A stretch of 44,154 nucleotides of DNA, taken from NCBI GenBank assembly GCA_903828975.1, contig CAIKOD010000021.1:1-44154 (forward strand), written 5' to 3'. How positions within the stretch are numbered: the first letter of the stretch is position 1; every line of letters starts with the position of its first letter. The notes under the pieces were generated by a model that saw nothing but the letters and a program-made list of their open reading frames with translations, was not told where the DNA came from and searched no databases. Source of the stretch: an uncultured Methanomicrobiales archaeon. GTDB taxonomy: Archaea; Halobacteriota; Methanomicrobia; Methanomicrobiales; Methanospirillaceae. Shown here one piece after another: positions 43,181 to 44,091 of this stretch. Made by a program: the position numbers and the translations under genes.

Positions 43181-43510
43181 CCCGGTTATAACAGCAATAC
43201 CTGCCCCCTGAAAATTGATACCTCATTCCTCCTGCAATAATACGGTGTTCCTCTACCCGCATATACATATTGAGACATTCCACGCTCTGATAGCCCGGAA
43301 TGGTTATATGTCTTGATAGGAACGCTCATTGGAAAGCAATATGCAGCCATGAACAGAACACCATGATTTACTTTGGAGTGGGAGAGAACAGCGGATTTTC
43401 GGTTGATCGCAGAATACGCAGATCGTCTCTTGTATTTTATAATATTACCGGGTGAAAACCTGAAATTTATCAGACCCATGTCGTACATCTGTCAGATAAA
43501 ATACGATACC

Positions 43511-43518
43511 TTTTTAAC
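43511..43518 (+). promoter_or_regulatory. TATA-like box for ncRNA candidate (TTTTTAAC)
   Basis: Centred ~25 bp upstream of the start of the closing stem. Confidence 0.45.
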
Positions 43519-43538
43519 AAGAATGTGATATCACAATT

Positions 43539-43662
43539 AGGTGTACCGATCAACCGCCCCCGCAATAGGTTGCCTGTGATATCGTCTCTATTGACGCCAC
43601 CTTGATCTTTAGGCGATATTCAGGCAGGCGTCGCCTGCGGAACCGGTGCACCTTAGTTTTTT
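43539..43662 (+). ncRNA. Candidate structured non-coding RNA (~124 nt), four-way-junction fold with oligo-T end
   Basis: P1 43539-43548/43644-43653; P2 43551-43555/43568-43572; P3 43572-43584/43614-43625; P4 ~43625-43629/43633-43637; T6 at 43657-43662. Confidence 0.6.
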
Positions 43663-43793
43663 GTTAAATCTCCTTGTATATAAAGTATATTGGTCGTGGG
43701 CGTATAATTCATCCCGCGTTTCCGATTTCATATGACGTCTTACCTTTATTTTCGAAAACAGTCCCCACAATGATAGGGATTACATATAAGGCC

Positions 43794-43839
43794 AATATGA
43801 GCTTAATTTACAAATTACCTCGATAATTGCGCTCATATT
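43794..43839. repeat. Inverted repeat AATATGAGC-N28-GCTCATATT
   Basis: Perfect 9-bp arms in intergenic DNA. Confidence 0.5.
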
Positions 43840-44018
43840 CAAGGTTCGTGCCTTCTGCAAAGCTGTCGGGGAAGATCCGTTCGTATCTATCTCTCTGGTA
43901 AAAATTCAGAGGGAGCGCATCCGCAAACGGAAAAGCAGACCGAAAACATACGACCCGCCGCAGTCTGAAAACCAAAAACCCTTACCAGGTTCAACGAAGA
44001 AACAGGAATATGAAAAAT

Positions 44019-44091
44019 GGGCTCGAGGAGATTCGAACTCCTGACCTCCGCCATGTCAAGGCGACGTCATAGCCAGCTAGACCACGAGCCC
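44019..44091 (-). tRNA. tRNA-Val (GAC)
   Basis: GGGCTCG..CGAGCCC acceptor, TTGACAT anticodon loop, AGGAG-TTCGAAT-CTCCT T-arm; no encoded CCA. Confidence 0.92.

Follow-up and report, generated by a model that had tools for sequence, protein, structure and literature searches.

A conserved structured small RNA of Methanoregulaceae with a loop complementary to histone and exported-protein mRNAs

Introduction

Near the end of a 44-kb contig, in the 2.58-Mb draft genome of an uncultured Methanomicrobiales archaeon, an intergenic segment of little more than a hundred nucleotides can be folded into nested helices. Is it an RNA gene and, if so, with what might the RNA interact? A preliminary description, made from the letters alone, had proposed a structured RNA with its own promoter and terminator signals and named a mobile repeat as an alternative. 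Here we examine this locus across related genomes, using "window" for the whole stretch of 44,154 nucleotides that was analyzed.

Results

An RNA family outside Rfam

The predicted fold has a minimum free energy of -46.6 kcal/mol, compared with -34.0 ± 3.5 kcal/mol for shuffled sequences (z = -3.6), and none of 200 shuffles was as stable. When the Rfam 15 covariance models were run, only tRNA passed its gathering threshold and nothing matched 43400-43800 at E ≤ 5, leaving the RNA without an Rfam family, in line with the earlier judgment that it did not resemble tRNA, 5S, SRP or RNase P RNA. BLASTn with 43480-43700 as the query recovered a single locus in the genome itself; another 24 genomes of its family have significant homologues. 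A degenerate pattern run over 85,462 species genomes gave 33 loci, all but one from records titled Methanoregulaceae, Methanolinea, Methanomicrobiales or Euryarchaeota; the exception, in Phycisphaerales (L043), is a chance match within a bacterial coding frame. Viral contigs searched for the RNA gave no match. A covariance model built from 17 sequences, all of them from genera other than the window's, gives the window RNA a score of 83.8 bits (E = 7e-18). Across the order, the covariance model is positive in 32 of 232 genomes (counting G186, where the contig ends within the RNA and leaves a fragment), belonging to eight genera of a single family (Methanoregulaceae/Methanolinea). Positions 43540-43652 of the plus strand belong to a real, conserved RNA family.

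Genomes carry one to three copies at mostly syntenic loci. The order in many species is a FKBP-type isomerase gene (+), the RNA (+), tRNA-Val (-), a methyltransferase-like gene (-) and a methenyl-H4MPT-cyclohydrolase-like gene (-), the flanking genes being named from a reading of their protein sequences. In the window's genus the flanking genes are different and the tRNA-Val neighbor is retained; in the window it is present as first described, and lies on the opposite strand. An extra copy accompanied by a degenerate one about 10 kb away, with P1 and the loop altered, was also seen in one genome (G055:C57, L065 and L119).

This distribution bears on two other explanations. A MITE-like mobile repeat with terminal inverted repeats would account for the invariance of the outer stem and for the two or three copies in some genomes, but homologues in eight genera, mostly syntenic and at one to three copies per genome, indicate that the RNA is not such an element; there are no evident target duplications, and the loop is conserved while the stems covary. 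We give this explanation next to no weight. The preliminary preference for an RNA gene over a mobile repeat thus holds up. A cis-acting element, either a riboswitch or a leader of a neighboring gene, would fit one group of paralogs (type B: L044, L055, L058 and L059) that lie downstream of an adenine-deaminase-like gene, between it and a response-regulator gene on the same strand. It fits the type-A copies poorly, since these are followed by the convergent tRNA-Val with no plus-strand gene at a fixed position downstream, and their flanking genes vary between genera; we consider such a role very unlikely.

A covarying hairpin presents an invariant loop

The features of the locus are listed in Table 1. 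The outer stem, hairpins, T6 tract and TATA-like box that had been described are all present: the terminal stem joins 43539/43540-43548 to 43644-43653, and the long hairpin is formed by GCCTG (43572-43576) and GATATCGTCT (43578-43587) with AGGCGATATT (43611-43620) and CAGGC (43621-43625). Two further proposals, a CAACC/GGTTG helix and a CAATAG/CTATTG pseudoknot or switch, exist in the window's genus and are not kept across homologues, where the P2 pairing is conserved in place of the former.

Table 1. Features of the RNA locus and its surroundings, in window positions
Feature	Position	Strand	Remark
Conserved upstream block GATAAAATACGATAC	43495-43509	+	all type-A homologues keep GATNCGATCCGATAC
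TATA-like box TTTTTAAC	43511-43518	+	starts ~28 nt before P1; homologues keep TTTTTTAT
Palindrome TGTGATATCACA	43524-43535		between TATA-like box and RNA start; perfect in window, partly kept in homologues
Structured small RNA core, P1 to P1'	43540-43652	+	covariance model, fold z, homologues in 8 genera
P1 5' strand GGUGUACCG	43540-43548	+	pairs with 43644-43652; invariant
P2 CCGC	43554-43557	+	pairs with GCGG 43637-43640
P3/P4 hairpin	43572-43625	+	GCCUG + GAUAUCGUCU with AGGCGAUAUU + CAGGC; presents the loop
Invariant loop GCCACCUUGAUC	43596-43607	+	predicted mRNA-pairing seed; most conserved internal segment
Small 3' hairpin GGC-GUC-GCC	43627-43635	+	95% of cells paired
P1 3' strand CGGUGCACC	43644-43652	+	invariant
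T6 in T-rich tract	43657-43662	+	after P1; T-rich tract in type-A and type-B homologues
Conserved TATATAAA	43677-43684		24 nt past P1; TTTATATA on the other strand
tRNA-Val(GAC)	44018-44091	-	convergent neighbor; adjoins the RNA in many other genomes too

P1 is identical in 27 of 27 distinct aligned sequences, including one internal U.G pair; the pattern search required it, and the unbiased BLAST set shows it too. Compensatory changes had been looked to as the decisive evidence in P1 and P3. P3 has them, as do P4 and P2, and P1, being invariant, yields none. P2 occurs as CCGC/GCGG, CCAC/GUGG or CCGC/GUGG, or shifted as AGCG/CGCU, and is replaced by UCCCG/CGGGA in the type-B paralogs (L044, L055, L058, L059 and L120). 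P4 has been rebuilt by lineage, from GAUAUCGUCU/AGGCGAUAUU in the window to AGUACU/AGUGCU in Methanolinea, CUUCC/GGAAG in L044, GUCAU/AUGAC in L058 and GCGGA/UCCGC in L120. The P3/P4 arms form a duplex of -20.7 kcal/mol on average with their own partner, against -15.6 kcal/mol when arms are swapped between lineages. In the model-based alignment, which was fitted to the structure and so leans towards it, 94.3% of cells pair and double changes occur in six pairs compared with 2.0 expected (0 of 500 shuffles); four of the six P4 pairs show them. MAFFT misaligns the diverged stems, and RNAalifold alone therefore missed P2 and P4.

The wobble pairs favor the plus strand as the one that is transcribed: 66 cells are G.U and 7 are A.C, most of the 66 coming from two near-invariant columns and thus representing fewer independent events; by column, G.U types occur in 10 and A.C types in 3.

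The loop GCCACCUUGAU is mostly unpaired in predicted folds. No internal part of the RNA is better conserved than this loop, GAUGCCACCUUGAU, which has GACGCC in the window. In the window's genus the loop ends in GAUC, not GAUU. We also considered a mini-ORF in the loop (AUG CCA CCU UGA) and rejected it: the window has ACG where the start codon should be, and it is the bases, not the codons, that are invariant.

Upstream, the TTTTTAAC box and the GATAAAATACGATAC block look promoter-like and would serve the RNA; the type-B paralogs, L120 included, all lack the upstream block. The palindrome TGTGATATCACA may possibly be an operator, and the T6 tract is likely to be a terminator. These signals agree with the preliminary description, which gave the RNA promoter-like and terminator-like signals of its own. 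Absent from that description were the invariant loop, with its matches elsewhere in the genome, and the TATATAAA element, which nearly all homologues, type B included, keep as such or as TATTTAAA at a fixed distance after P1 and which could act as a promoter on either strand. Beyond it, between the RNA and tRNA-Val, lie further conserved islands (GATATTTT..GCGTCAG, GAACGCATAA and GGGTGCCGCA; L037, L040, L050, L053, L054 and L064), at about +180 to +430 relative to the start of the RNA, which suggest a second non-coding element.

Complementarity of the loop to the 3'UTR of one histone mRNA and the start of another

A search for the complement of the loop, AUCAAGGUGGC, in 12 RNA-bearing genomes led to a conserved site within the main-histone 3'UTR (archaeal histone, Pfam PF00808, NCBIfam NF043032). 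In 14 of the 15 RNA-positive genomes checked, the genome's own loop can pair over 12-18 bp with its own main-histone 3'UTR, 28-61 nt past the stop codon and usually just before a U-rich stretch, with pairing energies of -21 to -32 kcal/mol. Compared with 500 shuffles, 13 genomes beat all 500 and one beats 499. Neither a histone nor an exported-protein site was found in G005, which has the RNA. Within the window's genus both ends of the site are variable: it begins with GAUC in G002 and G003 and not in G001, and G003 has a further A-to-G change that retains a G.U pair with the plus-strand RNA. The window's own assembly lacks the main histone gene, and its two other histone copies, at contig ends, carry no site.

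A second histone gene, with a GUG start, is matched at its beginning. In all 10 RNA-bearing genomes examined its leader AATCAAG (GATCAAG in G023) directly precedes GTGGCAgat, giving about 13 nt of complementarity to the loop that cover the start codon; the main-histone leaders of the same genomes differ. Order-wide, the start pattern GAGGTNATCAAGGTGGC occurs in 22 of 232 genomes, 21 of them in RNA-bearing genera, where the matches that were read are histones. The remaining match, in G012, was discarded, as it falls in a non-histone gene, and the RNA was not detected in G228 and G058, two incomplete assemblies among the 21. Of 30 histone loci read in 20 RNA-lacking genomes, not one carries the motif within the interval from -60 to +400. 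The complementary sites and the RNA thus co-occur, although the RNA-positive genera are probably one clade, so that this agreement in presence and absence represents few independent events. Pairing energy does not single out the predicted targets among starts: of 376 sampled in G016, one scores slightly better than the second histone.

The motif is found in the same sense as in the mRNAs only on the minus strand of the RNA locus, and a minus-strand transcript from TTTATATA (43684-43677) might carry AUCAAGGUGGC in its loop and serve some RNA-binding protein as a decoy, like CsrB with CsrA. The distance from TTTATATA to the end of P1 is about 26 nt, and even the type-B copies, which lack the plus-strand promoter block, retain TTTATATA. 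The excess of G.U over A.C cells, the T-rich terminator-like tract that follows P1 on the plus strand in all types, and the G003 change that preserves pairing with the plus-strand RNA all favor the plus strand, and we regard a minus-strand decoy as unlikely.

Some exported-protein genes carry the same match at their ribosome sites

Further matches lie at the starts of genes for exported proteins. A protein of about 270 aa, with no Pfam or NCBIfam match, has ATCAAGGTGGC at its ribosome site in 14 RNA-positive genomes from eight genera, the window's own included (G000:C91). The compared proteins are only 36-77% identical, yet ATCAAGGTGGC is kept; neither the seven homologues read in RNA-lacking genomes nor the more distant members of the family that were read have it. 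In the window's genus, a second copy of the protein has the one-letter variant GATCTAGGTGGC. A census of ATCAAGGTGG in the window genome (G000) gave 12 matches outside the RNA; only two of them extend to the 11-mer ATCAAGGTGGC, and both are exported-protein starts, one belonging to the 270-aa protein and the other to a PKD-domain protein at C138. Another exported protein (MKLRKCLLYC.. in L331 of G016, MKLQQCLLYC.. in L327 of G010) has AATCAAGGTGGTG at its start in two genera and, judging by this match, is likely a further target. In G016 a few 11-mers also occur within genes or at unclear places. All predicted targets are on other contigs or far from the RNA locus. Separately, we observed that this Pfam-less family of the 270-aa exported protein is strongly expanded, mainly in the RNA-positive clade, with up to about 32 matches per genome (G016, G027, G034 and G040); in any one genome the RNA site seems to be confined to one or two of them.

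AGGUG is also a normal Shine-Dalgarno core and matches the end of the archaeal anti-Shine-Dalgarno sequence, so some complementarity at starts would be expected in any case. One could go further and take the AUCAAGGUGGC leaders for nothing but strong ribosome sites, with the resemblance to the RNA unrelated or serving another purpose, the more so as ATC AAG GTG is a frequent codon run that makes the 10-mer common in coding frames. But the longest match is that of the histone 3'UTR, which is not a start, the conserved match reaches well past the Shine-Dalgarno core, and the sites are absent from the histones and exported-protein homologues read in RNA-lacking genomes. We find this explanation quite improbable.

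Discussion

Our findings make it likely, as far as sequence comparison can tell, that the RNA is a trans-acting antisense small RNA, transcribed from the plus strand under its own promoter, that pairs with histone and exported-protein mRNAs. It is intergenic and apart from its predicted targets, structured with covariation, and has conserved complementarity at ribosome sites. A plus-strand transcript of about 115 nt would start near GGUGUACC, and its covarying hairpin would hold out the loop GCCACCUUGAU. Complementarity of about 12-18 nt links this loop to AUCAAGGUGGC sites in the main-histone 3'UTR, at the GUG start of the second histone and at the exported-protein ribosome sites. In the second histone and the exported proteins, pairing over the AGGUG core, the start codon or both would block initiation. 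Pairing in the main-histone 3'UTR may alter mRNA stability or 3' end formation and processing; alternatively, the abundant main-histone mRNA may titrate the small RNA. The structure and the complementarity are computed; that the RNA is expressed and pairs with these mRNAs in cells, and in which direction it acts on them, we infer.

A broader reading, on which we are evenly divided, is that the RNA couples chromatin composition to the cell surface: it would repress the second histone at its start codon, modulate the main-histone mRNA at its 3' end or be titrated by it, and silence exported proteins. If true, this would be RNA-based control of the balance between histone paralogs. In any case, a conserved small RNA with an invariant loop that fits the 3'UTR of one histone mRNA and the start of another is a concrete, testable candidate regulator, with a putative regulon that sequence comparison can trace through many archaeal species. 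In the open-licence literature searched, we found no archaeal small RNA described with histone targets.

In animals, the small RNA of the U7 snRNP pairs with histone pre-mRNA near its 3' end and acts in 3' processing. The likeness is one of analogy only and would have arisen independently, and the archaeal RNA is also predicted to pair at start sites. The bacterial RybB and MicA are Hfq-dependent small RNAs that pair close to the start codons of several surface-protein mRNAs and thereby silence them; unlike these, which are not known to have histone targets, the RNA described here is archaeal and has predicted histone targets in addition to exported-protein ones.

Closer comparisons come from methanogens. 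Methanosarcina mazei sRNA154, whose targets belong to nitrogen fixation, masks ribosome sites with a loop and also stabilizes mRNAs (PMC5867862). Both RNAs are intergenic, structured and trans-acting, the latter predicted for the one described here; sRNA154 comes from a different order, we found no sequence relation between the two, and our RNA has one loop that matches both start sites and a 3'UTR. sRNA41 of the same species represses several mRNAs, those of the acetyl-CoA decarbonylase/synthase operons, through ribosome-site masking (PMC5867862), as we predict here for several mRNAs, although no histone targets are described for it. Finally, M. mazei sRNA162 acts in trans, pairs over the ribosome binding site and has conserved stem-loops (PMC3510493). 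The pairing segment of sRNA162, a single-stranded linker, is also its most variable, whereas in the RNA described here the predicted pairing loop is the most conserved.
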